Source of the DNA: Membranipora membranacea | Lineage: Eukaryota > Bryozoa > Gymnolaemata > Cheilostomatida > Membraniporidae | Reading direction: 5' to 3' | Length of the DNA stretch: 64,000 nt | Assembly (NCBI GenBank): GCA_914767715.1 | Contig: OU612069.1 | Location: 11,839,387-11,903,386 of the forward strand | Shown: piece by piece, positions 20,989 through 63,025 of the stretch | Position numbering within the stretch: position 1 is the stretch's first letter | Layout of the letters: the number at the start of each line of letters is the position of its first letter | Translations under genes and position numbers: made by a program | Notes under the pieces: generated by a model | The model's database searches: none | What the model saw: the letters and a program-made list of their open reading frames with translations, nothing else | Told to the model about the DNA's origin: nothing

Positions 20989-21223
20989 CCCCCCTGTTTA
21001 TGACAAAACAGAGGGTGGGCTGCCCCTAAAAAGGGACGCAAGTTGCTCGGAGTCCTCATACTGAGAGTGTGATACATTCTAGCAAGCTAGAATGCATCCT
21101 AGAGGTGAGGCCATGGTGGACCTCCTAATCGTGAGTGTGCAGCAAGCTGCCAGAAACTGAAACAGGCACTAATCAGCCATTAGCCATGACACTTCGATCT
21201 TAGCCAATAGGCCGAGAAGCGAT
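20989..21223 (-). mobile_element. U2-snRNA-headed SINE, copy 1 (full length, with target-site duplication)
   Basis: On the minus strand the element starts ATCGCTTCTCGGCC, exactly the 5' end of U2 snRNA, and continues (one substitution) through TTGGCTAAGATC. An unrelated body of about 160 bp follows, ending GTTTTGTCATAAACAGG. A perfect 15-bp direct repeat (ATTAGAATGTGGGTC) flanks it at 20974-20988 and 21222-21236, overlapping the first two element bases. This is the mark of LINE-type integration. Confidence 0.85.
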
Positions 21224-21884
21224 TAGAATGTGGGTCACAGCTGGCTTTTTATCAGTCAGGGACCTTATCAAACATGATTTATTTAGGTAGGAGAACTGAC
21301 ATTGATTGGCACCTAATGCCTTTCTGGTCGGAATGCGATTATCCTGTTTTTATGGAAGTCATAATGTCTAAATAATTAGTTCATAAATCACAATGTCAAT
21401 CTTTTTATCAGCAACTATTTGGAACCTTCAAAACAACTTGTGTCCCATGTAAAAAATAAGACGATGCACAGGATAATTCTGACCAATTTTCAGTTTTTTT
21501 ATTTGGCCCTAAATAGATATTCGGAAATGCAAGTGTATGGTTGTTGATTGGCAGGTAGGTTCAGATTCAGCCTCCTACATCGTTTGAGTCAAGGTCTATA
21601 AGGGAAAATTAGCGCTGATGGCTGAGAACACGAGTAAGCATTTTCAAACAGACCACTCAACTAAGCCTACCAAGAGCAACGGACACATGAGAGCATAATT
21701 GAATCAAGGAATTTGAGGTGTGTAAATTTTTAGAAGTGGCTATTTTATTCCGTTTCTAGAAAACAATAACGGCATCACCATTTTATTCAAATTCATTATT
21801 ACCAATAATTATTTTGTGTGTTTAGTCAGTCTTATTAGTGATCGGATAGGATTTTGATCATAATTATTGTCCAGGTTTGGGGTT

Positions 21885-22112
21885 AGGGGCCTGAGGAGAT
21901 GTGTGTGTGAGGAGCAGGAATTGGCTGAGATCTTCACAGGGTCAGGCCTCATTTGCCCAATTGTTATATGTCCTGGGTTTGAATCCCAATACACTCTACT
22001 GACTACGATTTGTCGGGTAATAGGTGTTCTCGGACCAGCCTTCAAATAGAACAAATAAAATTTGCACTCTGCTGCCTTACGCTGAAGGCAACCAATATCT
22101 GTAACCAATACC
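21885..22112 (+). mobile_element. tRNA-derived SINE, family 1 (diverged copy)
   Basis: A box-B-like GGGTTTGAATCCC at about 21977 is followed by CTCTACTGACTAC and the family-1 tail. The head is diverged. Other members lie at 31621, 31865, 37955 and 49866. Confidence 0.5.
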
Positions 22113-22163
22113 TTTAGATGATGATTTTTTGAGTATCTGTGAAATATGATAAGATTTCATTAT

Positions 22164-22169
22164 TTTATT
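22164..22169 (-). terminator. Candidate polyadenylation signal of collagen D
   Basis: AATAAA on the minus strand, about 100 bp past the stop of gene D. Confidence 0.5.
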
Positions 22170-22267
22170 TCTAAAAAGAAATGCAATTAAACAAAAAGAA
22201 AACTTAACAATTCTACTTCCGACAAAGTCCTCGGAAAAATAAGTTATATACGAGGCTAGCAGATTTG

Positions 22268-25200
22268 TTAATAGCCATCTTTGGTTTTCTCTTCAAACTC
22301 AAAGCCACCCTTACCAGCATCTCCCTGTAAGTTAAAATTAAAACATAATTCGTGTAGTTTCACATTTAAATATATTCTGATTATGATGTTTATGCATTCA
22401 TGATATTTTATGTGTGGCCAGTATATTGTGTAAATTGAATTTCTCCTTACGCCAACGGTAAGCAAGACAACGGGAGCCCGTTTGAGAGGAGGCAAGTAAT
22501 ACACCATTTCCAGGTACATGATCGGATTGAAGTCACCAAGTACGCGTGCGATGCTTTGACAATAATGCATGAGCAATAATATGTGAAATCTGAAAGGCCA
22601 GGCTGCGGCTGAGGTGCGAAAAACTTTGTGTATTAGGAATGTTTGGTTATGATCATTTCAGGTTGTGTCAAATGGGTTTGTTTTGTGTTTAAAATGGAGA
22701 CATTAGCATTCCCTGTTTTTTGTCATGATGTTACAAGGTCACGTATAAATATAATGTACAATTATATTACATGTGAAGTTATGTCTTTTATCGGTGAGTC
22801 CTTCCTGCATACGCTTTTTCAGCAACCTTGATGAACTTGCGGTATAACTTTATACACAGCACAGCTAGCCCCTTACCATTATTAATTATATTAATTATAA
22901 TTTTCACTGCTTCCAGGCTCAGATCGTAAGAATTTGTGCAGATCTCTTCAAATAATCCACAGAAAATTAATATCAAATTGAAGGAAAAGATTTTTCAAAT
23001 TTAGAAAATCTACAGGCTTACCTTTGGCCCTTGGTCGCCCATCGGTCCCGTTGATCCCTTGACACCTAGTGCACCACGTGGTCCGTCAGCGCCTGATTTT
23101 CCTGGAGCTCCTGGTTGTCCAACATCACCTGGTTGGCCCTGTTTCCCATCCTTACCGTTCTGTCCATCTTTTCCTGGCATTCCCATTGGCCCAGCAGGTC
23201 CTGTGTTACCTGCAGTGTCAAAACAAAATGAATCTTATTTGCTCGCACTGGTTCTTGATTGTGAAGCAAATTCAGGCAACAAAACAACTTACAGACATAT
23301 TTTGTATTCAAAACAAATTTTGCTGATTCTCATATTATTCAAATGTATTCCAAATAAAAGATATATATCTTCTGCATTGGTCTTACCTCTTAGTCCTGGG
23401 GCTCCTTCTTTTCCTGCCTCACCAGCGCTGCCTGAGTTACCTTGGGGTCCCCGGTCACCCTTTCTACCTGAAAAGCCTGTTCGCCCAGTTAATCCTGGTG
23501 CTCCAGGTGACCCTGTCTCTCCAATCGGTCCGCTGGGTCCATCAGCACCAGGGTTGCCAGGTAATCCTGTAAAGAGAAATGGATGAAGCATTGCATAGAT
23601 GATAACAAGATATGTCCAAGCCTACCTCCCCTACCCTTGTTCATAGTAGCTAGCTTATTTGGTAGATACAACCCTATCAGCAGCACATTATGACCAATGG
23701 TGTATCGATGTAAGGCAGGACATTCCCAATTGAAGTTTGCAGTACTATTTCAAGACTGAAATCTGTTATTGAGTTACCTCCTCGTGAATCAAGGGAACAA
23801 TACTCCTAAAAACACACCTTCATTATTGATCAGCTCATGAGAACCTTGAATTTAAAAGTAAGCTAGCTAATATTGCGTTTTTTAGACCTAAATTGGAAAT
23901 TAGAAGGGAATTGCAGGCCCATTGCACAACAAATAGTCCCTGGTAGATATATTGCAAGTGATATGAATATCTGCTGAGTCCAAACATCCTAAGGCTAAGT
24001 TTTATGTGCATTATTCAACGAACCTGCATTACCCTTGTCACCAATTGCGCCAGCTTGTCCTTTAAGTCCTGGGCTACCATTCCTTCCATCCTGACCATCT
24101 CCACCCGGTGCTCCTTGGGCTCCCTGAGGTCCTTTAATACCAGCTTGACCTGGCAGCCCCATGTCACCTTTTTGTCCAATGGCTGGTTTGCCAACTCCTT
24201 TCTCTCCCTTAGGTCCCTGAGATCCTGAATCCCCTCTAGCTCCAGCTGGGCCCTAGAGTAGATTAAAGTGAGATCCATCATCGTAAAAAGAAAAGTATTA
24301 CAGCAACAGTTGTCATAACAGCCTCAATAAGCTTATCTGATCAAGCTGATGACAGAAACTGTGAAAACACATCTGGACTGGATTATAACACAGTGAAGGA
24401 TTTGTGCTTATTCTTAACCATAAGTGGAGTGGTACCAGAAATGCAGTCAATGCTGACCAAGTGGTTAAATACTTGGAATTGCCGAAAAGGATAATAACAG
24501 AGGTAGTGAGAAGAGTTTATTTGACGGTTTCACAGCAATAGCTGTTCCATTTTGGTCAAAAAATATTTTCCTTGTAACATACCTTTGGTCCTTGAGGCCC
24601 TGGAGGGCAGTTACATGAAGATTTTTGAGCCTTTGTACGTTTAGAAGCTTTAGAGACTGTTGAACCATATGATCTCTTCACTCTCTAAAAAATAGAACAA
24701 CATGTGAAAATTCTTCTCGTTATACTTAATTGTTTAGCCAGGGAAAAATTGTCTTTCTTTCTAAGGTATGGACAATGGTGCATGACCTTTTCAATCGCAT
24801 ATAATTCACTGCACACACTTAAATTGTGAAAAATAGCAGCAGTGTCTAAGCCCTGGCTGTCACTTTTCACAATATTAGTGTTATTACAATGCCTTTATCC
24901 TAACCACATCAATCATACAGTGCAAAAATGCTCTAAGTCTTTGTTTGCTTATCATTGCACATTACCAATGTATGGATACTAGAAGAGACAAAATGAATGG
25001 ATGATCATAATAGATTAAACAAAATAAGTTAAATATTTCTCACCAATTCATCTATCTCCCTGGCTCCACATTTAATTTCTAAATGTCCAATCTTCTGTTC
25101 CTCCTGCGCATGAAAATATATAAAAATATACCAATATTACCGATATTACAGATACGATCTTATGTTTGAAATTAAAAAAAGTAATGGCAGTAATCTGGCA

Positions 25201-25473
25201 ACACAATTTTTGACCGAGTAAGAAGGGATCCCAGTGATATTAATCACAAGTTCGTCTGAATTTTGATGAAAGGAACATTCAAATTCAAAATGTAAAATTT
25301 GAAAACACCTTTTCTCTACTTACACTGGCGAATCTCTGAAATATGTAGTTGAATGTCATAACGTTAGTCACTACAAGTCCAATGCAGAGTACAGCTAAGA
25401 TAGCGGTAGCATAGCCATGAGCACTCAGTTTGGCCTTGTTGGCATGTGCGATTGCAAAATCTGTTTTCTCCAT
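22268..25473 (-). CDS. Collagen D: type II transmembrane, furin-cleavable short-chain collagen
   Basis: Seven coding exons (minus): 25473-25324, 25103-25044, 24684-24583, 24252-24024, 23566-23387, 23209-23022, 22324-22268, giving 321 aa, all phase-correct. The first exon ([16 protein letters not shown], then a membrane segment about residues 22-40) is nearly identical to A and E. The stalk EEQKIGHLEIKC carries an extra Cys not found in A or E. The third exon has RVKR|S followed by an 11-residue Lys/Ser-rich insertion relative to E, then [11 protein letters not shown]. Helix exons are 229, 180 and 188 nt. The third is 18 nt (six residues, two triplets) shorter than in A and E, and the interruption GVGKPAIGQKG is conserved. 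The tail is GDAGKGG plus an acidic/basic end and a terminal GY. There is no C-terminal NC domain. As in its paralogues, a separate untranslated first exon precedes it (end at 25735). Confidence 0.85.
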
Positions 25474-25734
25474 CTGCAAAAACCAACGCTAGGTAAATTA
25501 CATCACTGCAGCACAAATTTTGATTATCACTCATTGCAAACATTTGGTAACAGTGAACCTACATAGTTGATTACGGAGCTGTTTTCAATGAGTTTTTGAG
25601 TTATCACATATTTAGGAGCAACAATTTGGTCGATCGTAAATAATTGGTATGGGATAAAGACGAGATGTGCCCCATAGAGTCTACAGCATGGTATAAAATA
25701 TGTCTTCCATATAAGTGTACTAAAAGTGACCTAC

Positions 25735-25795: not shown

Positions 25796-25879
25796 TGTTT
25801 TTTTTATATACAAATGATACATTTATTGCAAATCAGTTGGAAAAAGCTGATGTAGTTGGTTCTGTCAGCCAATCACATC

Positions 25880-27380: not shown

Positions 27381-27388
27381 TTCAGGCT

Positions 27389-27582: not shown

Positions 27583-30070
27583 TTAATATCCGAAGTTCTT
27601 TGAACCAGCATCTCCCTGTAAAAAGTAAACAGTACAGCGATTAATTATAGGAGGAAAATTTGTCGCCGTTTTGTGTTTATGTGTTGAACATAGAATAGAG
27701 CCTCAGAGTCACAGAGGCACAGAGTCTGTATCTTGACACTGAGATAGACAACTTTACATGATACATGATTTTTTTAATGTGCAGAGTGATGATCAATGAG
27801 CCAGCCTGTGTACTGCCTTGTCTGACATATCTATCGATGATCAATGAGCCAGCCTGTGTACTGCCTTGGCTGATATATCTATGTTTGTAAACTGATGGAC
27901 ATTTCCTTTTTAATACCAATGGAGGAAAAGCATAATTGAATTAATAGAATAAACTCAGTCAGAAAATAAAAACCTGCAGCGCTTTTACCTTTTGTCCTGG
28001 GTGTCCCTTTGGTCCTGGTTTGCCTTGTGATCCCTTGGGTCCCTGAATTCCTGGTGCTCCTGTAACTCCATTAGCACCATCCTTACCTGGAGCTCCTGGT
28101 TGTCCCACATTACCCGGTCTGCCTGGTTGTCCAACATTACCATCTTTCCCATCATTTCCTGGTATACCAATTGGTCCTTCAAATCCTCTGTTTCCTGAAG
28201 GCGTAAAACTAAACTTATTAAAACTTTGTTTGCAGGCAGCAGCAGGCCGATGTGATGCCACAATCATATGGAAACTCAATGTTTCTTGTATCATTTGCCT
28301 TAATAGAAAATTACCTATACTAAATTGTCAGTGAATACAGTTTTACCTAAGACTTCAATGCCTCCTGAATTGTCAGATTACAAATTCAAGAAAAAAACAT
28401 AATAGCCGATCTTCAATCTTACCTTTTGGTCCTGGGCCACCATCCTTTCCTGGTTGACCGTTGCTTCCTGGGATGCCTCTGTGTCCTTTGTCTCCCTTTG
28501 GACCTGATGATCCTGGTGTTCCATCTTGGCCCGGTGCTCCCATTGATCCTTGTTTTCCCATTGGTCCTTTTGGTCCATCATCTCCTGGCTTTCCTGGTAT
28601 TCCTGCGTAGGTAGTTGTGAATATAATAGCAAGTATTATGACGAGAAATTTTATTGGATATGGATTATGATCTGTTTAGTATCTAATACTGAAAGGAAAT
28701 CAATTGTTGCTCATACCAAGGAGTTAGGGACAACTCCTAATTCCTTGCTCATACTAATTTCAGATTCATTGATGGCAGTTACTGCTTTATCTAAAATAAC
28801 AAGAAATGATAGCAATTTCAATTCCACATACCTGATTTGCCTTTGTCTCCCTTAGCACCAGCTGGTCCTTTAGGTCCTGGTCCACCATCTATTCCATCCT
28901 TACCATCTCTACCTGGTGCTCCTGGTGCTCCCTCAGGTCCTTTAGGTCCTTTAGCTCCTGGAAGTCCTGTTTCACCCTTTACCCCAACTCCTGGTTTGCC
29001 GACTCCCTTGTCCCCCTTAGGCCCCTTTGATCCTGTATGTCCCTTTGCTCCTGATGGTCCCTATAAGTGAAATAAAATTGACTTCTCTAGTTAAATTGTT
29101 GAAAAATCTCCCTTTGAGCAAGGAAAATACTACATCGATCAAGTTTAACAGGTCAAAGCGGAAAAAGAAGCCAAACTAGTCAATCATGAGCCCATCAATC
29201 AGTAAGTTACCCATATTGAGTAAAAACGAAGAAAAGATAATGGGAACAGAAGGTCATCAATGACTCCATTATGGAATATAATCTCCAAAGATTATCTATT
29301 GAGTGGAGCAAAGTTCCTTTCTCATAACATACCTTAGGTCCTGGGGGTCCTGCTGGGCATTGGCATGAAGATCCCTTTGTGTGGAATGATCTCTTCACTC
29401 TCTATAAAAAGGAGGAAGAAAATTACACTATAACAAATTTCTAATATTCTTCTTTTTTAAATCTACTGTATTGTAATGTTGAGATAAACCTTTTTCAACC
29501 AAAAACATACATATCAAATTCTAATGAATTTGCTTACAAGAGTTTGTCTTTGGAATTCGCTTATATCCAACTTTCTTTTGCTATTACAACTTGCCTTTTA
29601 GGTTGGAGACACATAACAATAAGAATCTATCAATAATCAATCAATTACCATTACTCACCAAATCTTCTATATCGCTGGTTCCAACTGTAACCTCAAGCTT
29701 ACCAATCTTCTGATCTTCCTGCAAAATATTCGAATTTTAATTGTATGGAATATGAATATAGAAACGTCCAAATGCATATATGGTTGGGGCTACAGAGAGT
29801 GCACTTATCGTATTAAAGTGTTGACAGTTGGTTATAAAGTAAGTGATAGTATGCTTGGGGAGCATGTCACCAAATTTTTCCGTAAATGGATTATTCGGAA
29901 AGCTGGCTGTATCAACTTACATCAGCAAATCTCTGATACATGTAGTTGAAGGTCATGATGTTGGACACTACAAGCCCAAGACAGAGTACAGCTAAGATAG
30001 CAGTCGCATAGCCATAGGCTCGCAGTTTAGCTTTGTTGGCATGTGCGATAGCAAAATCTGATTTCTCCAT
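27583..30070 (-). CDS. Collagen E: type II transmembrane, furin-cleavable short-chain collagen
   Basis: Seven coding exons (minus): 30070-29921, 29718-29659, 29401-29333, 29060-28832, 28602-28423, 28194-27989, 27615-27583, giving 308 aa in one continuous phase. It opens [17 protein letters not shown], then a single membrane segment (about residues 20-40) and the shared FNYMYQRF end. The stalk is [17 protein letters not shown] marks a furin-type site and [11 protein letters not shown] is the Cys-X-Cys knot. Helix exons of 229, 180 and 206 nt equal those of gene A exactly. The interruption [11 protein letters not shown] is in the same place. The final exon encodes [10 protein letters not shown]. 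Compared with A, X and Y positions carry more Pro in Gly-x-Pro and Gly-Pro-x triplets and more charged residues (NVGQPG, KDG). The subfamily with D is clear from both protein and exon lengths. Confidence 0.87.
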
Positions 30071-30419: not shown

Positions 30420-31620
30420 TGATATTTTGCAGTTTAGGTAAGCACTTAATCAAAGTCCAAAACATCCCTGTTTCCTTGATTTGGTGCCGAGCTGTGGCAC
30501 AATTCCCTAATTCAAAGGATGATTAATTATTTCCTTGGAACGTGCCAATAAGGAAATCCTTAACAGTTCCAATAAACTAATTAATCAATTACCAGGGCAG
30601 ATGACAGAGCACAGTTTGATATGAGACTGTTAATCAATTGCTATACATCATATGGTATTCTTTTCCTCGAGTTGTTCAAAGAAATTCAGATTTGGTACCA
30701 GGGATGGAAAGGGGTCGGCAGTCTTTGCCTGGCGACTTGAGGTATGCTCTTCAAGGACATTAATTTCCTACGACCAATTGACACATTTTGTCATGAGGAA
30801 AAGTGGCGGTAAACAATTCCAGACTGAGTTAGGTGCAAGTATACTAAGAGTGAGGCACGCAGAGTACATAGACACATTATAACGATTTCAATGTAATTTA
30901 TTTAGATATTTTGATACAAATATTATGATATTGATGATATAAAAGTCATTAATTGCAGGTAAAATTTAGGATACACAAAATATAAAAGCTCAAGAGCACC
31001 CATAATTATAAGAGCTGCCATCGTGATCAAAAAAAGTTTCCTAACATGTGTGTTTGTAAAAATCGTATCAATCATAAGATCCCTTGGTTGTGAGAGGAGG
31101 AGAAGCGTTGCCCAGTTTTGTGGGTTCTGAGGGGATCAGAGGATGTATGTTTGCTTATGAGAGCAATCAAGTGGCCACAATTAAGATTTTATTTTGAATG
31201 TTGATTTAAATCTGGCAGAAGGTATTCCAGAATCCCAAAAAAAAAAATTGAATCAATAATTTCTAGAAAATCGGAACTCCTGTTGCAGCAGAATTCTTTC
31301 TCAATGACATCTGATAATTTTGTAGTATTGCTCGAAAAAGATACTGATGGAAATGCTAAAATCCATTGAAACTACACCACTTCTCCCTATCTTGCCAATA
31401 TTATTCTTTTAAAAACAGAAAATAGAACCAAATCTAAAAATTATTGATCAAGTTCAAGTTAAAGCTCCTCTCAGAGCAGTGCAATGACTTAGAAGAAAGT
31501 GCAGTGCAACTGGTACTAGAACTATAATGAAACAATTTGGCAACAATTGCAACGAGAAATTCGTTTTCAAAGGTAAAAGTGAAGGTCACCTAAGGGGCAG
31601 TTCCTGAACCAACATTAAGA
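30420..31620. other. Divergent intergenic region between E and C (part); no gene seen
   Basis: One open frame of 76 codons (30652-30882) has no splice sites, no paralogue in the window and no family feature. I treat the stretch as non-coding. Confidence 0.4.
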
Positions 31621-31860
31621 GTAGGGGGTGGCTTAGTGGTTAGAGCGACGGTCCTTCAGCATGCAAATGTTGAAGGTCTTGGGTTCGAATCCCACTGCAG
31701 TCTACTGACTACTGGGAGTTGATGGACCCCCAGGTATGCTTCGACCTGCCTACAAAACTGAGAGCAAATTTGCGCAGACATTGCAGCCTCGCCCTCAAGG
31801 CACACATTACTTTGCCGCCACGATGTGGTGAGCGACTAACCCTTGCAAAAAGAGAAAAGA
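31621..31860 (+). mobile_element. tRNA-derived SINE, family 1 (good copy)
   Basis: Box A is TGGCTTAGTGGTTAGAGC and box B GGTTCGAATCCC, followed by TCTACTGACTACTGGG, a CCCCAGGTATGCTTCGACC body and GCCTCGCCCTCAAGGCAC near the tail. It lies head-out beside an inverted second copy. Confidence 0.75.
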
Positions 31861-31864
31861 AAAA

Positions 31865-32037
31865 TGTGGGTTAAAATCACAAGTTTGTCTCTGTCTGAAG
31901 ACTGAGAAATGAAGGTGCCTTAAGGGCGCAGCCGCCATGTTCGACGCCAAGTTGCTCTCTGTTTGCAGGCAGGTCCGAGCACACCTGGGGCGGAACCCGA
32001 GACAGGCGCTGTAACCAACTAAGCTACCTCCTACTCC
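31865..32037 (-). mobile_element. tRNA-derived SINE, family 1 (inverted neighbour)
   Basis: Minus-strand copy beginning GGAGTAGGAGGTAGCTTAGTTGG with the box-B region damaged (GTCTCGGGTTCCG), the CCAGGTGTGCTCGGACC body, and a tail containing CTCAGTCTTCAGACAGAGAC. It forms an inverted pair with 31621-31860, able to fold as a hairpin. Confidence 0.7.
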
Positions 32038-36020: not shown

Positions 36021-36025
36021 TGGGG

Positions 36026-36546: not shown

Positions 36547-39500
36547 ATGGAGAAGGGAGAGGGATATTCACTTTCTGTTGAGAACAAATCTAAGATCAGA
36601 GTGATAAGTTATGGATCTCTTATAATCGGCACACTCGTCGTTGGTATGATTGTTGGTAACATCTTCATGTTCAACTACATGAACAAGAGGTTTGATCTGG
36701 TGAGTGAAGATAGTTCGTAATTCTTGCAAGAACAATTGATATGTGATGTGATGTAAGATGTTCAATTAAATGAACTTGCTGTTTAGTATGAAACAGAAGT
36801 TTGGACTGCCTCTAAATAGGGACGCATGGTGCCCTAAATCCTCATACTGAGAATGCGATACATCCTAGAAAACTAGAATGCATCCTAGAGATGAGGCCAT
36901 GGTGGTCCTCCTTATCGTGGGTGTGAAGCGAGCTGCCAAAACTGAACTGGCACTAACCAGCCATTGGCAGTGACACTTTGATCTTAGCCAATAGACCGAA
37001 CACTGCAAATTTTCAAAGTTTTCAAATCATAAAAGTGTAATGGTTTGAGTTGAGTGTTTAAGTAAACTATTGTTCATATCCTAATGCTAGAATTTATATG
37101 AATTAGGCAACTTAATCTGGCAAAATAAACTTAGATCGGTGCCCGAAGTTCTATGAATCGGAAAATCCTTCATAATATGTTACTGAGAAATATCCATCCA
37201 AATGACAGTACAATATGTATGTCATATTGCGAAATTGCCACATAATAATGATCTCACTAGACTCATTCACTTTTGTTGAATTTGTTGCGATGATGAGACA
37301 CCACCATGTCAAATCAGCCACGATACTTTGCGAAATAAAAACTTCATTATTTGTGTTCGGGATTATCATATTATATTATATTATATCATATGATATTATA
37401 TTATATTTTATCCTATCATCATATCATATCATATCACATCCTATCAAACTACATTGTATTATAATATATTATACTATATCATTTTTTATAATACTATATT
37501 ATTATTTTATATAATTCAATCCTATTTGTATTGATAGAATAACCAAAGGATCATGAGGGTACAAACCATTGTAGCTGCAGAAGGACTAGAGTTTGATTCA
37601 GCAACCACACCTGATGCCGAGGTAAGTCATTATATAAAGAAAAGCGTTGAGATTTGCACCAGTGATGAACATGTTGAGGAATTTATGATACTTGATCATA
37701 TATTACCTTTCTACTGTAACCTGTCGAATCCAGCTACTTTATCCCCTAACGGTTTCCTTGTATGAATCAAACAAAATTAAATATGATAATCGGAAGAAAA
37801 TCTTTACCATATCACACACAATAGTTGATGTTGAGGTAAACAACTACGCAATTGAATTCAACCTCCCTATTCAATGCACTTTGTGTGGAGATCCTAATCA
37901 CTGTAAACTATAGCCTCTCTATTTTGAAACACCTACTATGGTGACAAAGGTTCCCAATTGGAGGTCTTGGGTTTAAATCCTGATACTGTCTACCAACTAC
38001 TGGGCTCAATCGACGCCCCAGGTGTGCTCCGACCTGCCTCCAAACTGAGAGTAACTTGGTGCCGAATACAGCGGCCTCGCCCTTAAGGCACTGTTATTTC
38101 TCAGTCTTCGAACAGAGACATACTTGCGATTTTAACACACCATTTTTACTCTCACATAATTTTTGAATCCAGGTCAATCAAGCCCTTCTCTTCTAATAAT
38201 GAGCTGCTGCAGTCTAGGGGGGATTTAAATTGTATCACTAACTGTACCTACTGTTTGCCTCATGAACTCACAGGGGTCAGCAAATTCTTTACTTTTTGTA
38301 CACTGTTAGAAAGTTGTTGAGCTACTGATGATGTAAGACCTAAAATACAATTTTATTTGGTGACATTGCGTCATTTCATCAAAGAAATGAGGCCCACCTT
38401 TACGCAGTAATCCATACATACTCTCAGCTTTACCTATAGTATACTCAACCTCAAACTCGGAAACTACATATCCTAACATACAACAGATATGAATCCGTAC
38501 CTACTCAATTGTACATCTCTCCCATTTTTCAGTTGCAGGAGGTAGACAGACTCAAGAGAACAGTTTACAGGAAAAGACCAAGCTGTAAATGTAAAGCGGG
38601 ACCTGCAGGACCAAGAGTGAGTTGACTTCCATGTTTTTTTAGTGAGAGGAGGTTGTTATTGACAACCCACAGTTGATGTTGGCTGATTCGGCTGTCTTAG
38701 CTATCAGAAAGCTCAGGGTGGAAACTGACAATGGTAATCAATCTTACAAAGATTGAGATGATCTGATTTGGAAGTGTCGACAAAAGGTTCAATAGCCAAA
38801 GAAATCCCTCAGTAGTGTTCTTAGTTGGCTTTCATCTTCTGCTCAGGAGAAGACAACACTGTGAGACAATTTTCAGAAAGAGAAAATTATACATGGACAT
38901 AAAAGTTATAAAGGGAGTATAGATGACCGATTGAATAACAATTATCCTGCTCAAACCTACAGATAAGGTGTTCAAGAGTCAGGAGTGGTTTAATGGTTAA
39001 GGGTTTGGATGTGATCTATGAGATCCAGGTTCAATTCCCAGCGCTGATTTGGTACTGGAATACCGTTTGTCCTAGCTAGGTCCTTGTGGAATGGGACTGA
39101 AAACACCGAAGGTCTACTGTGTGCTTGCGCCATCCACAGGCAGTAAAAAGAACCCCCTCTGCCTATTGATGATGATGATAAAACATAAAACGTTTGACGT
39201 ATTTTTCAGGGCCCAAGCGGATCAAAAGGACCAACAGGAAGTCCAGGTCCAAAAGGAGACAGGGGAGAGATGGGTGTCGGAATCAGCCTCCCAGGTGTAC
39301 CCGGATTACCTGGACCAAAGGGACCGACTGGACCAGCAGGAGACACGGGACCAACTGGAGCTCCAGGCCGTGATGGTGAGTTTATCGGAAACTACCCCGG
39401 ATCAATTGAATAAAGTTTTTCCTCTTTTCCAAAGCTAAAATTGTACTGCTCAAAAACTAAAAACCTGCTTCCCTTCATAGTATGAAAATGTCATTACAAA

Positions 39501-49700: not shown

Positions 49701-52700
49701 TCAATTTTTACATAAAAGTTGTGGGTCACTAGAAAATGCATTTGGTTTGACAACTGAGCTTGGGGAGCTGGAAAGGGGAATTACTTTGGTACCATGTGTT
49801 GGACAATCAATGAATTTAATACAGTGACATCTCAACAGCTTTGGGTTCCCTCAAGTACAGAACAACAAGTTGCTTTCAGTTAGCAGGCAGGTCGGAGCAC
49901 ACCTGGGGTTTCAATTGAGCCCAGTAGTCAGTAGACTACAGTGGGATTCGAACCCAAGACCTCCAATGCATTGCGTACGAGAGGGTAGCCGCTCTAACCA
50001 ACTGAGCTACCTCCTACCATTAAGTTATTTTGTAATTGTAGATTCTGTACTATCAGAGCCCGTGGACCAACGGGAGCAATTTATTGATGGGCCGCCTCCC
50101 CTGGAGACTGACGATCACTTTCATCTTTTCTTCTACCATTCCCCAGCTGTAGAGGATCAGGAACAAGTTAAACAACTCAAGAAGATACTAGAGAACAAGT
50201 AAGATAGCGACAACAGTACATGTGTCCTATTAAACTATTTTAAGAGCTGGCTACACTCCGTCCGGGTTCCTGGTATCAACCGTAGCCCAATAAGCTATTC
50301 AATCATGTTCTGGTTGATAAAGGCTACTACAAGCAACTCTGTCCGTCTTTGAGAACCTAAACTTGTGAGCTATATGTACAATAGATTGAGTTTGATCCAG
50401 TGTGCCTGCATTTCAGTTGCTCCCCTTCCACCGGTTCATCGGTCCTGCGGCGTGATCAGTGGAGAGAAGCAACTCCAAATGCAGGAATATGGACCAAACT
50501 GGTGACTTTTATGTGCATAGGGACCAAGGAACAGTCCAATGGTAAAGGGTACACGTTTGTAGGCTTTGTAATTTGGCACTGGTGTGCCTTTCATCCTTAC
50601 CAAGACCTCGCAGCATTGGCCTAGGAATAGGGTAATGGTAAGGAATACTTCATTAAAGGGTCAGGGAGAGGAACTTTTCATTAGTCAAATTAGTTTCAAT
50701 GCAATCTATAATAAAGCCACACCAGAGTTTTCTGACAACATTCCATTGGAAAACTTTCAAGGGTAATGCTAAGGGTGATACGACAACATATCAAATGCAG
50801 TATCCTGTACACTTTTGATCAAAAACACCTTGATAGAATCCAGATCAAGCATGATCCAATTTGCTTTGTGAACTTTTGAGCCACAAGCAAACCTGGCTCA
50901 CTAGTGAAATTAAGAGAGCCTGAATCTGCGCATAATTAGATAAAACTTGATCTAGCGTTGACCTAGACTTGTCACACGGTTACTTACCAAACAAAAAAAG
51001 TAGCTATGTGACAAAGGCTAGCGCTAACCATTGTTTTCTATATACCATATTGGATATGGGTTTTGAAACGCGAACCGATCATCAATGAGATTTGTCGAAC
51101 AGCCCTGATAAGATAAAATTTAATATCTATTTTATATCAATCAATACTATTTTATTATAAGACATTGTCTTTTGTATTTGAGCAGCCCGTATGAGTTGAA
51201 AGTGATGACATCAATGGATGATTATAAACCTGAACTCACAGCCACTCAGAATCTAATGCTTTGTGCGGGACTGAGTCAAAAGACCGTACTACTCTGCTCT
51301 CAGGAATTTGCAGACAACAATCTAAATAATTACATCTCCTCTGGTCTTCAGTTTCAGGTATGTGATATCTCCATTCTGCTCGATAAAATGTACTCCCTTG
51401 TGAATAAGGATGGATACATGACTGGTATTTATTTGTCAGCTTCAGTCACAGGATTTCCTGTATAATATTTTTAAGTATTCAGCGCTGAATCTGTAGTTAT
51501 CTATTGCACTATATGGGAATTGATTTATCGAGACCAAGTAGACATGTGAAAGGAAGTGGACTCTTCTGCTGCCGACTACGAAATTGTGTTATCTCTGAGG
51601 TGATGTTGCAAAAATTTATTATTATAAGCGTTAGACTACGGAAAACGAAAGAAAAAATCCACTACAAATATCATATTCAGTATCAGAACAATGGAACACT
51701 ATTTTGATTATTCAATAAAAGGAGCAAGATTTTTTAACATTTTTACTGGCGAGTGTATTCAAAGATATAATTAACTTTTTCCCTATGATGACAGCGTATG
51801 TTAAAACAATTACAAACATATATATAATAAATTAAATGAGCTACAAATTTAAAAACGGGTTTATGACCATGTCTATGGCAGAGACCGTTATGAAATCAAT
51901 GATCGATCATGTGAACCAGTTAGGGGTATTTACCTAGTAAGTCCTCACTCATTAGGTCAAGCTAAAGATCTACGCAAGCAACATACTGTGAAGCTACCAT
52001 CAAGTGTTTACAAAGTGCTTAGAGAGCCATTACTAGCAGCGGTCAGCAAATAATTAAATATCATACCTTAAGGCACAAGTCATCTAAAAAATAAAAATAC
52101 AGTTACGACTTCTCTATACATTTACTGACATGTTTTACAAATTATGGTAATATTTCGTTAGGGTCAAATTGCTAAATATTGTAAATATCCAGGGAAAAGT
52201 GGTTTCTGCAATGTCAACAAGTTGCTCACCTTCCAACAAAGTACAAGTTTTCTCCTAATTTCAGAGCAGAAAATTGAATACCCTAGGGGAGTATATGTGG
52301 GCTAGAGTTTCCTTTGGCTATTTGTGAAGTAACTTAATCTTAGCTACACTACAAGTACAAATGTTAGCTAGAATTTCTTTTGGCTATTTCATGGGTTATC
52401 AAACCTTAGCTAGCACAAAGCTTTGACTACCTAAGGCCAGAGTCTATATGATGCGAATGGGGCTGGGTCTATTTTAGCTAGAATATATTAAGCTTCTTCA
52501 AGCATGTGCAAACTTTTTCTCCGCAAATACTTTTAATCATCTAGGATTTGGCATTGATATCAAATATATCTTATTATAGTTTATCATTATTATCAGCGTC
52601 AAACTCAGTGTCAAGAGGTGACTGACTTTATACTGCCAGTCTAATAATCTTTGTGAAAACGAATATATAAATAACACAATATATATCCTTTAGTTGCGAA

Positions 52701-54771
52701 CACTTTGTAATTATAGTTCTAGCTAACCGATTAGTTTGCCGCCTGGTAAATTTTTAGGTGCATGCGAGCTAAGGATAGAAATCCAGAGCGTACATAAGTC
52801 AATTATAAATATAGACATGAAACTGTACAAGTTGGTGTCTTACATCAGAACAAGTGTCTCGGGACACAAATTAATATTTGATGGTCAACTTGAAAAGATA
52901 ATTGAAAGTCAGGCGCCAGAGAGTTGGATCAATTTTTCTAAAGTGTATTACGAGTTGGCGTTAGCTTCAATGCCTGCTGATTTGAAGTAGACATATGAAG
53001 TGTGGTCTAGTCATTATTCTGAAGGTGACAGTTGGGGAGCATCAAGATAAAGTAGCTGCAACTTTTGATTTTCAGGAGAAGAGTAGCAACAGAGTCATCG
53101 TGTTGTTGGGTGAAGGTGTCCCGCTCCCAGAATCGCTGCAAGGATATTGCAAAGTTCTTAGTCTAACCGATCAGGATTGTTTGGAGAAGCTGGCGAAAAT
53201 GGTTGGAAGACACAGTAAGTTTTCTTCCATTGTCTTCCTTGTACAGATAGTGTATTTTTGATCTATCTTAACCGTCTCAATCTCTATTACCCCAAGAAGT
53301 TTGAATAATCTCCCAAGTTCTTGGTCACAATCCAAGTGACAGTTGTCGCTGCCTATAGCATGTGACGGTAAAACTGAGTTTTCACATTCATCCGATTAAT
53401 TTGATTATTCTATTCAATGCAAAAATGATAACCTACATTATTTCATGCTCCCTATTCATTGAATTCCATATCGTATCTCGCTTCTCGGCCTATTGGCTAA
53501 GATCAAAGTGTCATAGCCAATGGCTGATTAGTGCCTGTTTCAGTTTCTGGCAGCTTGCTGCACACTTACGATTAGGAGGTCCACCATGGCCTCACCTCGA
53601 GGATGCATTCTAGCTTACTAGGATGTATCACACTCTCAGTACGAGGACTCCGGGCAACTTGCGTCCCTCTTTAGGGGCAGCCCACCCTCTGTTTTGTCAT
53701 AAACAGGTCCATATCGTATCTGCATGAGACAAATAAAATTCATCGGTCTATTTGGGTAAGAGCAAAGGGTAACTGCCAGCTTAAGTATAGGCAGGTTGTT
53801 GCACATAAAGCTCAGGCTGTCATTCAAGGCCACAAACCTGAGATGTGTTATAGTTTCTAGGATGCATCACACTCTCATTATGAGGATTTTTTGTATCTCC
53901 GATCCTCATTACTGGGTGCTCAATCTTCTGTCCTTTACCAGTTGATTTCAGCTTGATTGTTGATTAGTATCTTATTCATCATTTTGTGGCCTGCTGCACA
54001 CCTTAGAAGGTTTGTTATGGCCTTAGGCATCTGGGATGCAAGATACATCACGCCCTCAATATGATTATTAAAGGCACCTCACATGCCTCTCTAGGGATAG
54101 ACTAATTTTCTATATTGTTCTGTATAGTAATTTCCTTCCGATTTTGTTGGCGAACAACTTTATGGCAACATTCAAATATCGGCCGAACAGCATTACTTAC
54201 AACCGTGGACCCTGTTAGGTGGGAAACAAAACAGTAAATTACAACTTGATAATAATAAAATAACATCTATAATTAATCAAACATCATTTCACTTTTTCTA
54301 ACATGTTGTTCTTGACTGAGTGGGAAGTCTTTTCTGGGTTCATGGACCGTCATTCCAAGTCATCGAGAGTTTCGAATGCTGGAGCAGATATTTCTTTACA
54401 TTGGTGTCATTGATTTTATGGCATAGCATGAGCAGGTTGTTATGGGATAATTCATACTGCTAGACAACCTTGCTTGAATCAACCAGCTGCAAAGAATAAT
54501 CATGCGGAAAGGTGTCTGAAAGCTGCCGGTCAAGCTGCCCACACAACATTTTCTTTTCTGCAACGCATACTCAATATTGAATGCCAGGATGACTTCCGCA
54601 TGAAAAGCCTCAATTTAAAACTTTAATACAAAACATTAAACGCTGACACTGAAAGTAATAACTATGTTACAATCTGCAGACGTCTTATCAGTGCCTCGAA
54701 AATCAATAACTCATTTTTCTTACTCAAAGTCAACTCCAGAGCTGCACGTAGATATCGCTTTCGCAGGTTGA
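43754..54771 (+). CDS. TIR-domain protein with long unrecognised basic/acidic N-terminal region
   Basis: Exons with compatible phases: 43754-43913, 45284-45525, 47973-48050, 48475-48562, 48807-48914, 49303-49338, 50042-50198, 51186-51357, 53076-53214, 54680-54771; about 423 aa. An extra 45-nt exon at 47401-47445 would also fit in phase. The N-terminal half has no known domain: Arg/Lys-rich start, PPSSCDEESEDNFYSLD, a basic KSKRKQWRKELRRR run and an acidic MYDGDDIDGNPF stretch. The last exons form a TIR domain, with strand A-like FHLFFYHS, MDDYKPELT in the box-2 region, TVLLCSQEF (strand D) and RVIVLLGEGVPLPESL (strand E). Box-3 FW and a catalytic-type Glu near the SQEF helix are not apparent, so I infer a scaffolding TIR in innate-immune-type signalling rather than an NAD hydrolase. 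The TIR part is firm. The joining of early exons into one gene and the last exon (tail TPELHVDIAFAG) are inferred from phase only. Confidence 0.6.
45744..46077. mobile_element. Small inverted-repeat element carrying a tRNA-like segment
   Basis: Ends at about 45748-45772 and 46048-46073 are inverted copies (ATACCCTATAGGAGTTTA). Subterminal blocks ACTAGTGAAATTAA and relatives repeat near the right end. Inside lies a tRNA-like stretch (45905-45985) with box-A-like GTGGTGTAGTGGTCTAAG and box B GGGTTCGCATCCC. It may be a MITE that received a SINE. Confidence 0.45.
45908..45988 (+). repeat. tRNA-like (Ala-type?) SINE head
   Basis: The stretch has box A, an anticodon-arm-like TCTG...CAGA with central TGC, and box B, but it lacks a proper acceptor stem. 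It runs straight into a T-rich tract, so I read it as a tRNA-derived repeat and not a working tRNA gene. Confidence 0.45.
49303..49433 (+). other. Alternative read-through exon encoding a membrane segment (TIR gene)
   Basis: If the donor at 49339 (GTGAAA) is not used, the frame of the 36-nt exon continues in phase to TAG 49431-49433. It adds a hydrophobic run FCVLWVTILSALTISLLIFY. The product would be a C-terminally anchored membrane protein without the TIR domain. No expression evidence is available here. Confidence 0.4.
49866..50019 (-). mobile_element. tRNA-derived SINE, family 1, touching a TIR exon acceptor
   Basis: On the minus strand GGTAGGAGGTAGCTTAGTTGG (box A) and GGGTTCGAATCCC (box B), followed by the family-1 body ending at CTGAAAGCAACTTG. 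The head end is only about 22 bp from the acceptor at 50041. The frame is open through SINE and exon together. Confidence 0.75.
50535..50625 (+). mobile_element. Degenerate tRNA-SINE family 2 fragment
   Basis: AATGGTAAAGGGT followed by TTTGGCACTGG and CCTTTCATCCTTA match family 2 in order. Intronic in the TIR gene. Confidence 0.35.
51360..52730. other. Intron of the TIR gene; short dispersed repeats only
   Basis: A motif of about 25 bp (TTAGCTAGAATTTCTTTTGGCTATTT-type) occurs twice near 52307 and 52366; related TTAGCTAG-rich stretches lie at 56860-56945 and 57260-57305. The open frame 51504-51707 has no splice context. Confidence 0.35.
52727..52990 (+). pseudogene. Possible dynein-heavy-chain C-terminal fragment
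   Basis: An open stretch without a start Met reads PPGKFLGACELRIEIQ, continues through KLYKLVSYIRTSVSG and LEKIIESQAPESWINFS, and stops at TAG 52988. The spacing F-L...E...L..IR.S.....P..W fits the conserved segment near the C-terminus of dynein heavy chains. It is one isolated fragment inside an intron of the TIR gene, with no adjoining dynein exons. I see it as a retrocopy or stray exon remnant. The resemblance is by pattern only. Confidence 0.35.
53477..53708 (+). mobile_element. U2-snRNA-headed SINE, copy 3 (with target-site duplication)
   Basis: Starts TCTCGCTTCTCGGCC and continues TTGGCTAAGATCAAAGTG, then the shared body and the GTTTTGTCATAAACAGG end. A 13-bp repeat CCATATCGTATCT flanks it (about 53466 and 53709). 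Confidence 0.85.
53739..54125 (+). mobile_element. Two old, diverged U2-headed SINE copies in tandem
   Basis: The first (53739-53940) keeps a decayed head (CGGTCTATTTGGGTAAGAGC) and ends near TCTTCTGTCCTTTACC. The second (53940-54125) has lost the head but keeps GATTAGT, CTGCTGCACACC, GGGATGCA and CTCTCTAGGGA. With copy 3 they make a head-to-tail array of three. Confidence 0.6.
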
Positions 54772-58200: not shown

Positions 58201-60934
58201 AGTTCAAAATTAATTAACCGGATTCATATGCAAATTTAGGACAGACTGTAACTGTATGTTAAAATCTTTCAGATTGTGAGTTTCATCAGCTGCTGTACAT
58301 GGTTCCTTGTTATCGGAGCTCTAAATCATTACAAATCAGAAACAACCATATCAACACCAACATTCTGGAGCTTTATGACATTTGTGTTCTTCATTCCTGG
58401 AGGTACAGCCCTAATTATGCTCATGATTGTTCTACACCTAGTAAATTATGTGAGTAAAGACAGAAGAGACATTCAAGGGCTAGGGACACGTGTTCCAATT
58501 GATCATCTCAAAAATGATTGTATCAGTATTTTTTTCAATTGTTATACTTAAAAATGTAGGCAACATAGGGAGTGTTTTAGACACTACTTAGTGCGACCAA
58601 AATCACCCCTTTTTGCCAATTTGCATAATTGTAATTGGTAGAAGCAAATAATTGGAAGAAGCGAGTGATTTACTATGCATTGTTGTTTACTTATCTTGAA
58701 CTCTGAGAGTTTCCTATTTTCTTGGAAAGCAGTGAGAGTCTTGCACCACTGTGGAGAAAGTCTAAATCATCTGTCTGGCAGGCAGGATATGTTCTAGACT
58801 TAAAACCCAAACGTCATCGCCTGTGATTTTTTTGGATCTTTCGAAATCACAAAATAGTAAAGCTATTTGTGTTTTGATTATAGAAATATCTAAAGTACCG
58901 ACTAAAAGTTGAAGAGTTCAATAAAAGGTTCAGGGAGACAAACTTAGTACTTCATGTCAGGAAAGGATTCTGGAGCTGCTCGGGAAAACTAAAACTCTTC
59001 TTCATATACTACAACTTTGAAGAATGCCAGGTGAGTGTCCTTAGATCGAGTTCAAGTTATTTGGCAAGAAATTTCTCTTCTTATGAAGTTATAAATAGCG
59101 CAACTTCTTGTTTTTAACATGACATCGCTAACAAGGCTCCCACAATGCAGCTCTAGCTTAGAACCTGGCAAACTTTTGTTTTATTGGATCGCTTATATGA
59201 ATCGGAAATTCCATCAGTCAGGAAACCTCATGTGAGTAGGGATATTTTTGTCATTCGCGACTGACTAATTCCATTCAACCGATTGGTTTCCTTTATCATT
59301 TGTTGACCTTCAAGCTGCTTTTATTTTCAGCAAACGCTATATTGCCATGTACATGACAACATGAGGTTCCCGATAACTCCGAACTGGGAAGAAAATGAAA
59401 AGCTTCTTAATGACATTGCTACAGTGAAACTAGATAGAATTATGGTAAGTTTGGTTTTGGCATTCTCTCTAAAAAACCATTTGGAATATGATCCAAACAA
59501 ACCTTTATAACATGAGTATGTAAATGCAGAGTGATGGCTGATGATCAGTGGTGTTGCATATAAATGCAACTATTTGAGATAGTACCATAGTTTTTGGTTC
59601 AGAATAGACCATCGAAGCATCAATTATCATTAAAATTCACAGTGGGCTTGGGTTTTCTAGAAAGTTCCAACACAGTAACGATCCCCCTGAGATATGATTT
59701 GGATATGGAAATAAGTTGCTGTTTGCGAAGAAACAGAAGATTGGGCTGCCCCTAAAGAGGGACGCAAGGTGCCCAAAATCCTCATACAGAGAATGTGATA
59801 CATCCTAGAAAACTAGAATGCATCCTAGAGGTGAGGCCATGGTGGGCCTCCTAATCGTGGGTGTGCAGCGAGCTGCCAAAACTGAACTGGCACTAATCAG
59901 CCATTGGCAGTGACACTTTGATTTTAGCCAATAGGCCGAGAAGCGATATAGAAATAAGTTTGTGATTTGGTGCCAATAACCAAGAAAATTGTTTGGGATT
60001 CCCTATTTTATTTCTTGTGTTTACTCGTCTTATGACATGTCCTTCTCTCCTTTAGAAACGAGTGAACACACTCACCAAAAAGTTCGAGTGGGATTACTTT
60101 GAGGCTCTCACTACACAGGCATTACCAAATGTCGAAGATAAAGAACATAGGAAAAAGGTATGGATTGAAACTGTATTGCAATTTTCTCGTATCCCACAAT
60201 GCAACATAAGCCTAAAATGCCTGGTTATTTTATCACTGACCTGGTCTAGATGGGATTTCCAGACAATTGCATTGTGGGATACTCAGTAACATCCCGTCCT
60301 GAGCATTGAAAACTTTTATACACATCACTCTTCTATAATCACTTCATATATGTATAAAAATGAATTTTAAGCATGACGAGATCTGATTATTTTTGGGAAA
60401 TGTGAAACAATAATTGAAATATGCTATGCTTTTCAAAAGAACTTACAACTATCACATCGCTCAAAATTATCGCTCAATTGTAACGTATTTAGCTCCATCA
60501 ATGATTTGCAGGTCTTGCTGTCTTGCTGAGTGATCAGATAGCAATCTTGGCTGATTTTGATTGAAATACCTCCCTATAGGCCTATATCAAATTTGACAGT
60601 GGTTGATGACATCACAGCTTCAGCTTATGACAGTATAGTTGTAGTTTATGGACTACTAGAGCGTCAAAATCAGCTATTCTTATATATTTTACAGGGAATG
60701 TGCTTCTGTCAGTATGTTCTACATAGAGAACAGATTGCTGCCGCAGCCAAGTCTGTCGTGCAACAGGTCAAAGGCCAAATGCACAGCATGAGAAGGCACA
60801 CTTCTATACAGATCAATCTAAGAGGTCAGGACAATTATAACATTCCAGCTTATCATCTCCACCCTTCTGGTATGAGCGACTCATCCTTCTCCAGCCGTGA
60901 CCATCACAAACAAGCAAGCGTCACTTTCATGTGA
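55282..60934 (+). CDS. Two-pass membrane protein of unrecognised family
   Basis: Nine exons in consistent phase: 55282-55459, 56459-56632, 57500-57675, 57947-58063, 58273-58449, 58884-59030, 59331-59444, 60056-60157, 60695-60934; 474 aa. The N-terminal 115 residues are polar, with a Gly run and a Pro/Glu/Ala-rich acidic part. Next comes a Cys-rich segment with N-glycosylation sites NGT, NYT and NVT and several Cys (TACNYT, GICQTYCPQ, LLCPRE, DCSLPC). Two hydrophobic helices follow: SVVVIVSFISCCTWFLVIGA and FMTFVFFIPGGTALIMLMIV. The C-terminal about 190 residues are basic/amphipathic, contain GMCFCQYVLH and end QASVTFM. The topology is puzzling: the Cys-rich part looks extracellular, yet no signal peptide or earlier helix is visible, so an N-terminal exon could be missing. 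It vaguely recalls small channel-accessory subunits, but I cannot place it. AATAAA follows at 60960-60965. Its last exon has a paralogue at 63642-63884. Confidence 0.75.
59718..59947 (-). mobile_element. U2-snRNA-headed SINE, copy 6 (full length, with target-site duplication)
   Basis: The minus-strand element begins ATCGCTTCTCGGCC, the exact U2 5' end, and keeps the whole body. The 3' end is the second variant (CAGCCCAATCTTCTGTTTCTT). A 15-bp near-perfect repeat (ATATRGAAATAAGTT) flanks it at about 59703 and 59946. Intronic in the two-pass membrane protein gene. Confidence 0.85.
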
Positions 60935-60959
60935 CATCATCGTATTAGGAAAATAGCTG

Positions 60960-60965
60960 AATAAA
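60960..60965 (+). terminator. Polyadenylation signal of the two-pass membrane protein gene
   Basis: AATAAA 26 bp after the stop codon. Confidence 0.5.
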
Positions 60966-60969
60966 GTTG

Positions 60970-62255
60970 TCTTCTCTCGCTTTACTCTCAGATGAGCAAA
61001 TTGCTATTAGCAATCATAATCAGTTTGTACAAGACTGGCCAAATGACAACAAGGCCAGCATGATGTTTAGTCTTACTCCTTGCTTTCACAGATACAAATT
61101 TTGTACACAAAAATATTTTAGCGCTTGACATTAGAATTCATGCTATTCCGTATATTGTATAGGTATGAACAGTAGTGCATGGTTGTTTTCAAAATTATTA
61201 GTTTTTAAACCTAGTCACCACAAAATCTTTTTGTTTTGTTTATTCATATCCAAAACCAATACATGGACACACTGAACTGAAAGTGGGTGGTGAATGTGAG
61301 AAGCTTCGCATAAAACATCAATTTCAGACACCAAAGTTCATGCAAAGGGAACACAGCCTTAATTCTCGTTAGGTCGTTCAACCTGATTTTGATTTGTAAT
61401 GGATTTCTAGATTCTTGGGGGTTTTGTCATGATTAGAGCTGTTGCAATAGGCTACGCCCCTACACTCCTAACAATTGCCTTGCCGTGAAATTTGGTTATG
61501 TATTCACAGCCATGCTTTTTCCTTTCCAGATCATAGCTCATTTTATAATTGTTATGGTCGATTGTTATTTTTTGTTATTCATATAAATTTGAATATATAT
61601 TTGGTATGCTTTCTGCATACACAATAATTGATTTGTATTAGCAGAAAATTAGACAATGTACATTCAGACATGATATGGCCCCCTTGGATAGTTGACTAGA
61701 AGTAGTGTGATCTAGATTGCTCAAATTCCCACAGGAAAACTACAATTAACGATAAAGAGGGGAACAACTCCAAATACAGGCAAACAGAATTAAACTGAAT
61801 GTAATGTAGCAATGATCTTATGAGTCCTGTTTTACAATGCTGTTGAGGTTATTACATAGGATACAAGTGTTACACTAGTCAAAACAGCTTCTGTTAAACG
61901 AAGGCTAAGGACTGTGATGTCTGTATTTTGCAACCTGTTGGGTCAGCCAGGAAGGAGTTAGCTTCTGTGTCTGAACATTGAACTTCTGAACCCAAAGGAT
62001 TAATGTTCACAACATTATGTGCTGCGGTCGTCGCATGGGAGACAACACTAGATAGGAGATAACAGATGGAGCAAAGCGTCGTGACTTCATTTTCATAACC
62101 AGGGGGTACATGATGGAGCCTGAATGGGGTTGACTCAAGGGGGCCTCTTAGTCCAACTATTCGATGCCGAGAGAGTTATTACACATCTTCTAAGGTTCAA
62201 GTCCCTGTAGCCATATCTCAAAGTCCCCTTTTTTGTTTCTGAAAATGACAAAGCA
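60970..62255. other. Intergenic region between convergent paralogues; nothing recognised
   Basis: No exon-like frames or clear repeats are visible before the SINE at 62262. Confidence 0.35.
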
Positions 62256-62261
62256 AAAAAG

Positions 62262-62480
62262 GGTCTTCTCGGCCTATTGGCTAAGATCAGAGTGTCATGG
62301 CCAGTGCCTGATTAGTGCCTGTTTCAGGTTCTGGCAGCTTGCTGCACACTCACGATTAAGAGGTCCACCATGGCCTCACCTCTAGTTTACTAGGATGTAT
62401 CACACTCTCAGTACAAGGACTCCGGGCAACTCGCGTCCCTCTTTAGGAGCGGCCCACCCTATGTTTTGTCATAAACAGGG
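62262..62480 (+). mobile_element. U2-snRNA-headed SINE, copy 7
   Basis: Starts TCTTCTCGGCCTATTGGC (first few U2 bases changed), then the body with a small internal deletion around CACCTCTAG, and ends GTTTTGTCATAAACAGG. A clear target-site duplication was not found. Confidence 0.8.
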
Positions 62481-62858
62481 CTATGAGATAACCCTAGGTC
62501 CCTCCATCCACAAAATGAATAAATAGCATCCATTGAATTGAACTTGATTCTCAAATACAACTAGTCTGTACTCATAACCATAAGATCAATCCTTACTCAC
62601 GTTTAAATTTAGAGTTATTCCCCTCCTCTGACAAACCACTGACAAGCCGAAGCCTATGAGTAGAGGGGTGTAACTTTGAATGAAGGCAAACTGAACAAAA
62701 CTTGTTTTAGATCTCTCCTGACTCCTCGAGTCAAAATAGATGCGTGGTCATTACTAAGGACACAAAACTGAACAGTTATCACAGCTGGACTTCAATTGCA
62801 TCAATCTGGCCTAATTAACTATGGTATCGGTAATGTATTGTAGAAATGCATCATTTAG

Positions 62859-63025
62859 ATCGCTTCACGGCCTATTGGCTAAGATCAAAGTGTCACTGCC
62901 ATGGCCACACCTCTAGGATGCATTCTAGTTTTCTAGGATGTATCACATTCTCAGTATGAGGATTTAGGGCACCTTGCGTCCGTCTTTAGGGGCAGCCCAA
63001 TCTTCTGTTTCTTACTAAACAGCAA
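62859..63025 (+). mobile_element. U2-snRNA-headed SINE, copy 8 (internally deleted, with target-site duplication)
   Basis: Begins ATCGCTTCACGGCC, lacks the TGATTAGTGCC...CCACC part, and ends with the CAGCCCAATCTTCTGTTTCTT variant. Flanking repeat GAAATGCAYCATTTAGAT (18 bp, one mismatch) at 62843 and 63026. Confidence 0.85.

Follow-up and report, generated by a model that had tools for sequence, protein, structure and literature searches.

Eight copies of a short repeat headed by the 5′ end of U2 snRNA are present in a 64-kb stretch of Membranipora membranacea DNA (the window; the count of eight covers all copies within it). The family is very probably (probability about 0.88, which refers to what the element is and how it inserted and leaves the polymerase aside) a SINE of the SINEU kind, inserted by the target-primed reverse transcription of a LINE. 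The evidence comes from the U2 match itself, target-site duplications (TSDs), the structure of the 3′ end, promoter searches and RNA folding.

Copies of the repeat

Searches of the 64-kb window by blastn, and by nhmmer with a six-copy model, revealed one repeat of ~230 bp on both strands. Six copies are well kept (A-F) and two are old (G and H):

20993-21223, minus strand: copy A, full length, subfamily 1 (blastn, nhmmer)
53477-53707, plus strand: copy B, full length, subfamily 1 (blastn, nhmmer)
62261-62480, plus strand: copy C, subfamily 1, with a 12-nt internal deletion; U2 part from about nt 5
59717-59947, minus strand: copy D, full length, subfamily 2 (blastn, nhmmer)
36777-37007, minus strand: copy E, subfamily 2; U2 part recognisable from about nt 10
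62859-63025, plus strand: copy F, subfamily 2, with a ~60-nt internal deletion just after the head
53739-53945, plus strand: old copy G, U2-like head still present
53946-54135, plus strand: old copy H, body only, without the U2 head

The earlier note had counted about eight copies with one body, and its eight positions agree with those found here. Copies A, B, D and F, which lie on both strands and are spread over 42 kb, have common 5′ and 3′ ends and define an element of ~230 nt. A and B are 95.7% identical and D and E 90.9%; of the 223 comparable columns, 24 separate the two subfamilies (A-B-C and D-E-F). The body of G is identical to that of D at 122 of 169 aligned letters.

Some copies lie close together. 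B, G and H follow one another head to tail in one orientation (53477-54135), B having been inserted ~30 bp before old copy G, and C and F are neighbours in the same orientation. At the internal deletion of F (62895-62903), head and body are joined within a few letters of a CCA common to both sides, an arrangement to be expected of either a reverse-transcriptase jump or a later deletion.

The U2-derived head

Seven of the eight copies carry 5′ U2 snRNA sequence, H being the exception. Human U2 served as the reference for the alignments, and human numbering is used. A, D and F match from U2 nt 1 onward, with one further change in the head of F, and B, which has C at nt 1, matches from nt 2. The match starts at about nt 5 in C and about nt 10 in E, both of which have lost the first head letters, and at nt 6 in G. 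In A, B, D and F it ends at U2 nt 34. The heads of these four copies are as follows:

21189-21223, minus strand: U2 head of A, U2 nt 1-34 plus one inserted A
53477-53511, plus strand: U2 head of B (Rfam U2, shuffle test)
59913-59947, minus strand: U2 head of D (Rfam U2, shuffle test)
62859-62893, plus strand: U2 head of F (Rfam U2)

B agreed with human U2 nt 2-34 at 32 of 33 aligned letters plus one inserted A (score 56), and D with human U2 at 32 of 34 plus the inserted A (score 53). The shuffle maximum for B was 24, and none of 1000 dinucleotide shuffles reached the score of B or D. Relative to human U2, the commonest head has T16A and one extra A at nt 29-30; an extra A also occurs in insect and worm U2. 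When the whole window was run through cmscan in E-value mode, the Rfam U2 model ranked first, with E-values of 2.1e-5 (B), 2.7e-4 (A), 0.13 (D), 0.17 (F) and 0.27 (C); E, G and H were absent from the U2 matches of this run. No copy reached the Rfam U2 gathering score, because only the first fifth of U2 is present. The head of G matched U2 better than 1000 of 1000 simple shuffles, and the head is therefore probably older than the split of the subfamilies.

These alignments agree with the earlier description of the head. Two full-length copies were said to begin exactly at U2 nt 1, as A and D do, and to follow U2 for ~35 nt, which corresponds to nt 1-34 with the inserted A. The single visible substitution noted up to nt 24 is T16A. 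The homology was said to stop just before the branch-point-recognition region; the end at nt 34 lies directly before the GUAGUA that pairs with the branch site.

Head and body are joined at one point in all six well-kept copies. The head is the best conserved part of the element: none of the 24 subfamily-diagnostic sites fell within its 36 usable columns (P = 0.011, from a small sample). The 64-kb window held no U2 sequence continuing past the head. A second U2-derived part was considered, since the Rfam alignment paired AGCUUGCU of the body with U2 stem-loop III. It was rejected, the rest of the element matching the rest of U2 at shuffle level: the score was reached by 513 (A), 535 (B) and 739 (D) of 1000 shuffles in sense orientation and by 1000 (A), 328 (B) and 201 (D) of 1000 in antisense orientation.

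Target-site duplications and 3′ end

The TSD test took in copies A-F. Duplications flanked four of these six, being exact in A (15 bp) and B (14 bp) and having one mismatch each in D (16 bp) and F (19 bp):

21222-21236 (5′) and 20974-20988 (3′): TSDs of A
53465-53478 (5′) and 53708-53721 (3′): TSDs of B
59945-59960 (5′) and 59702-59717 (3′): TSDs of D
62842-62860 (5′) and 63025-63043 (3′): TSDs of F

Their scores were 12-15, and the best of 3000 random 230-bp control stretches scored 10. Because the TSDs scored above all 3000 controls, we conclude that the copies moved by target-primed reverse transcription. No TSD was found for C or E, both of which have a damaged 5′ end. The four TSDs are unlike each other in sequence. 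In all four copies the duplication abuts the U2 start and includes the first two letters of the element (three in D); these are AT, but CT in B, whose target also reads CT. This overlap, seen in four cases, suggests that microhomology with the U2 end serves to seal the 5′ junction.

The earlier note had reported four copies with TSDs of 13-18 bp and had attributed them to LINE-type retrotransposition. The number of copies and the mode of insertion hold. The lengths given here are 14-19 bp, and the difference comes from the counting of the two or three letters common to TSD and element. The same note had named two findings that would speak against the family, a consensus in which most copies lack the U2 part or have it start inside other sequence, and a lack of TSDs at other copies. 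Neither was seen within the window: the head was present in seven of eight copies and TSDs in four of the six well-kept ones.

The 3′ end is a terminal hairpin, CTGTTT...AAACAG, with exact arms in A, B, D, E and F and one change in C. Five such exact-arm hairpins occur in the window, against 0.08 expected. The hairpin of B is located as follows:

53689-53706, plus strand: 3′ terminal hairpin of B, exact arms

In the copies with TSDs, one to five letters separate the hairpin from the duplication: G's in A and B, and C or CA in D and F. These four copies have no poly-A at the 3′ end. A hairpin 3′ end without poly-A points to a LINE whose reverse transcriptase recognises 3′ structure. A LINE ending in the same way was looked for in the window and not found. 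A crude test for reverse-transcriptase motifs in the six frames of the window gave two matches to a short ADD pattern, neither of them in reverse-transcriptase-like surroundings.

Folding of the RNA

In copy B, the 5′ region (53477-53533, plus strand) is predicted to fold back on itself, the U2 arm (nt 3-27) pairing with element nt 34-57, at -27.1 kcal/mol (z -5.7; 0 of 200 shuffles). Folding of this region covered A-E. The foldback had z values of -4.1 in A, -4.6 in D and -3.1 in E (0 of 200 shuffles each) and was weak in C (z -1.4; 16 of 200 shuffles), so energy supported it in four of five copies. Copy B as a whole folded with z -3.7 (1 of 200 shuffles). RNAalifold on the six copies gave 56 pairs, one of which had a two-sided change, and the covariation term was unfavourable (+1.85). 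In the consensus fold the head formed the native stem-loop I of U2 instead of the long foldback, a choice that may reflect the missing second arm of F. Folding energy thus favours the predicted foldback in four copies (A, B, D and E), whereas covariation lends it no support.

Promoter boxes and transcription

Pol III A and B boxes were searched for by plain consensus match, a scan that would miss odd promoters. In the first 110 nt of A-F the joint score was 11-12 of 18, which 93-183 of 200 shuffles also reached. As positive controls we used two tRNA-headed repeats of the same window, which gave joint A and B scores of 17 and 18 of 18 (0 of 200 shuffles). Two further control stretches, 37958-38091 and 31860-31992, scored 12 and 11. 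A Pol III promoter in the head was therefore rejected, the heads being no better than shuffles in a scan with two positive controls. In a scan of whole copies, for which the shuffle comparison covered A, B, D and F, copy B scored 14 of 18 at nt 135-172, in the body and not in the head (19 of 300 shuffles); A, D and F stayed at shuffle level. Each of A-F has at least one internal TTTT, a motif that usually ends Pol III transcription. ARAGORN found no tRNA in the window; this says little, because it also missed the tRNA-headed repeats.

The control repeats are SINE-like and share a common body (31615-31803, plus strand; 49863-50023, minus strand). Their Rfam tRNA matches are weak (E 9-10). The stretch 37958-38091 is a relative of theirs without a recognisable head.

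The 5′ end of the element coincides with the transcription start of U2, and no internal promoter was found; from this a Pol II source is inferred. Our first choice, held at a little under even odds, is that Pol II transcribes a few source copies under a U2-type promoter that lies outside the element and that the scattered copies are silent. This step is drawn from an absence, that of the boxes. Next in rank comes a weak or unusual internal Pol III promoter, which is possible, at roughly one chance in three. Transcription from neighbouring promoters is unlikely.

Proposed explanation and alternatives

The SINE reading may be put together as follows. The family is very probably propagated as an RNA of ~230 nt, too short to encode a LINE protein, whose first ~35 nt are the U2 5′ end, joined at one common point to an unrelated structured body. 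A LINE very probably copied this RNA into new places by target-primed reverse transcription, with the 3′ hairpin presumably acting as the signal for the partner's reverse transcriptase. Transcription would be by Pol II from a few source copies, with the U2-type promoter lying outside the element and the dispersed copies silent.

How the head was acquired admits more than one answer. One plausible answer, tentatively the better one though at less than even odds, is that it was added once, when the reverse transcriptase of the LINE switched template from the SINE RNA onto U2 RNA or when the two RNAs were ligated, and was inherited from then on; transcription would then use an unrecognised internal or flanking promoter. 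The same join in all six well-kept copies and the U2-like head of the much older copy G agree with a single gain. One report considers both routes, template switching and RNA ligation, for chimeras of LINE-1 with small RNAs (PMC13174262). However, a single gain does not by itself account for the head being the best conserved part, and it leaves unexplained how copies without a visible promoter are amplified.

A more specific form of the Pol II explanation, which we regard as doubtful, is that the source sits, or once sat, inside a U2 gene. The body would be a short non-autonomous element in that gene and would be read through, the head (U2 nt 1-34) coming from the U2 gene itself. The hint comes from the position of the join: the head ends at nt 34, four letters before the downstream U2 sequence (from nt 39) that adjoins Utopia and Keno insertions (PMC4640811), which suggests that the source RNA may come from within a U2 gene. 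From such a place the element could draw its promoter and its exact 5′ end, and the U2 gene would keep renewing the head. This arrangement would account for the start at U2 +1, the absent A and B boxes, and the lack of diagnostic sites in the head columns (0 of 24 in 36 columns; P 0.011). Against it, U2 nt 39-47 does not adjoin any of the eight copies within 60 nt on the 3′ side; the single match to it, with two mismatches and 40 nt after E, looks like chance. The window holds no U2 beyond the head, and M. membranacea's own U2 would have to carry T16A and the extra A. We estimate a ~5% probability that a join would fall this close (within 4 nt) to a given site by chance, and the coincidence of sites is therefore weak evidence. 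The fullest version of this scheme, a SINE outside crocodilians read by Pol II from a U2 promoter, with source copies in U2 genes at the Utopia/Keno site, a fresh head in each round and a downstream foldback arm, complementary to U2 nt 3-24, that hides or displaces U2 stem-loop I, is unlikely to hold in all its parts.

That the family is an ordinary Pol III SINE, with a decorative U2 head and with transcription driven by a degenerate promoter of tRNA or 5S type, is improbable. TGGCTAAG at U2 nt 18-25 resembles an A-box core, and the body of B contains the box pair scoring 14 of 18 (19 of 300 shuffles); yet joint scores over the first 110 nt were at shuffle level in six of six copies, and internal TTTT is present in each well-kept copy. 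An origin without retrotransposition, as a DNA-transposon relic or a local duplication with a U2 fragment, is very improbable: it would suit the adjoining copies (B, G and H in one orientation, likewise C and F), but it is contradicted by 14-19-bp TSDs that differ in sequence, and A, B and D do not end in inverted repeats, their first and last 12 letters agreeing at 4 (A), 5 (B) and 5 (D) of 12 positions.

Other features of the window

The GC content of the window is 35-39% and its CpG observed/expected ratio is 0.46. Clusters of Gly-X-Y stretches were found at five places (the list omits one short row on the opposite strand, 4483-4545):

4479-6430, minus strand: Gly-X-Y cluster
17717-18726, plus strand: Gly-X-Y cluster
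23022-24252, minus strand: Gly-X-Y cluster
27989-29060, minus strand: Gly-X-Y cluster
39210-41072, plus strand: Gly-X-Y cluster

Pfam Collagen matched three of six frames tested. Stretches of 7, 18 and 21 triplets recur in three clusters, so that the clusters have the look of short collagen genes arrayed along both strands. The base composition, the CpG ratio, these clusters and the extra A of the U2 head fit an invertebrate genome.

Two adjacent open frames at 353-1045 (plus strand) have no Pfam match; they may resemble a Polinton/Maverick capsid protein. The open frames at 60542-60934 (plus strand) and 63642-63998 (minus strand) both contain LQGMCFCQYVLHREQ and a KQASVTF end, and were unpaired in the DNA self-comparison. 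They are perhaps paralogous exons and may resemble TM7 of adhesion GPCRs; the Pfam search of the 60542-60934 frame gave a weak MrcB_N match and nothing else. A 1.1-kb tandem duplication (13543-14641 and 14643-15705) has ~67% identity between its units.

Comparison with known systems

Most SINEs use Pol III promoters inside tRNA, 7SL or 5S heads. The tRNA-headed SINEs (SINE2) resemble the present family in being short dispersed elements with an RNA-gene head; they have near-perfect A and B boxes, whereas the U2-headed family lacks such boxes (17-18 versus 11-12 of 18).

The closest known elements are the SINEU, which Kojima (2015, Genome Biol Evol) reportedly described in crocodilians as SINEs with U1 or U2 snRNA heads. 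They are said to prefer a Mariner family as target and to be linked to LINEs of the Tx1 clade. The present family shares with them a U2 snRNA-derived head and LINE-type insertion, and has the features of the class: an snRNA head (seven of eight copies), short dispersed copies with common ends, and TSDs of the target-primed type (four of six). The likeness is drawn from descriptions of the class. The family differs from the described ones, which are crocodilian and reportedly prefer Mariner targets, in its AT-rich invertebrate setting and in its four TSDs, which are unlike each other. SINEU is a recognised class of SINEs with snRNA heads in two papers (PMC8143547, PMC8010984), and a further one gives a list of SINE classes (PMC5753468). 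The earlier statement that snRNA-headed SINEs have rarely been described fits this class.

According to Kojima and Jurka (PMC4640811), Utopia LINEs enter U2 genes and are followed by U2 sequence from nt 39, a 3′ flank that Keno shares. Our family is associated with this part of U2 too, their site (nt 38/39) lying four letters past the end of its head. Unlike Utopia and Keno, which are LINEs in or next to U2 genes, the copies described here are short and have no U2 flank; downstream U2 from nt 39 was absent from the 3′ flanks of all eight. A small nuclear or nucleolar RNA is likewise joined to a retroelement in the U6- and U3-LINE-1 chimeras (PMC13174262). Those are described there as repeated fusion events, in contrast to the one join common to many copies in M. 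membranacea.

Exact patterns of the head, body, tail and U2 with A16 had no match in viral contigs, and those of the head and U2 with A16 had none in prokaryote genome contigs, collections that may not include the genome of the window; both results are as expected, because this is an animal repeat. Sequence strings of the element had no match in paper texts. Among the matches listed for the openly accessible literature, as far as its text could be searched, no report of a U2-headed family other than Kojima's was found. As far as we know, the family is thus the first U2-headed SINE outside crocodilians, though within a known class. Another U2-headed SINE in which no Pol III boxes are visible would suggest that SINE families can also be founded by Pol II snRNA genes.
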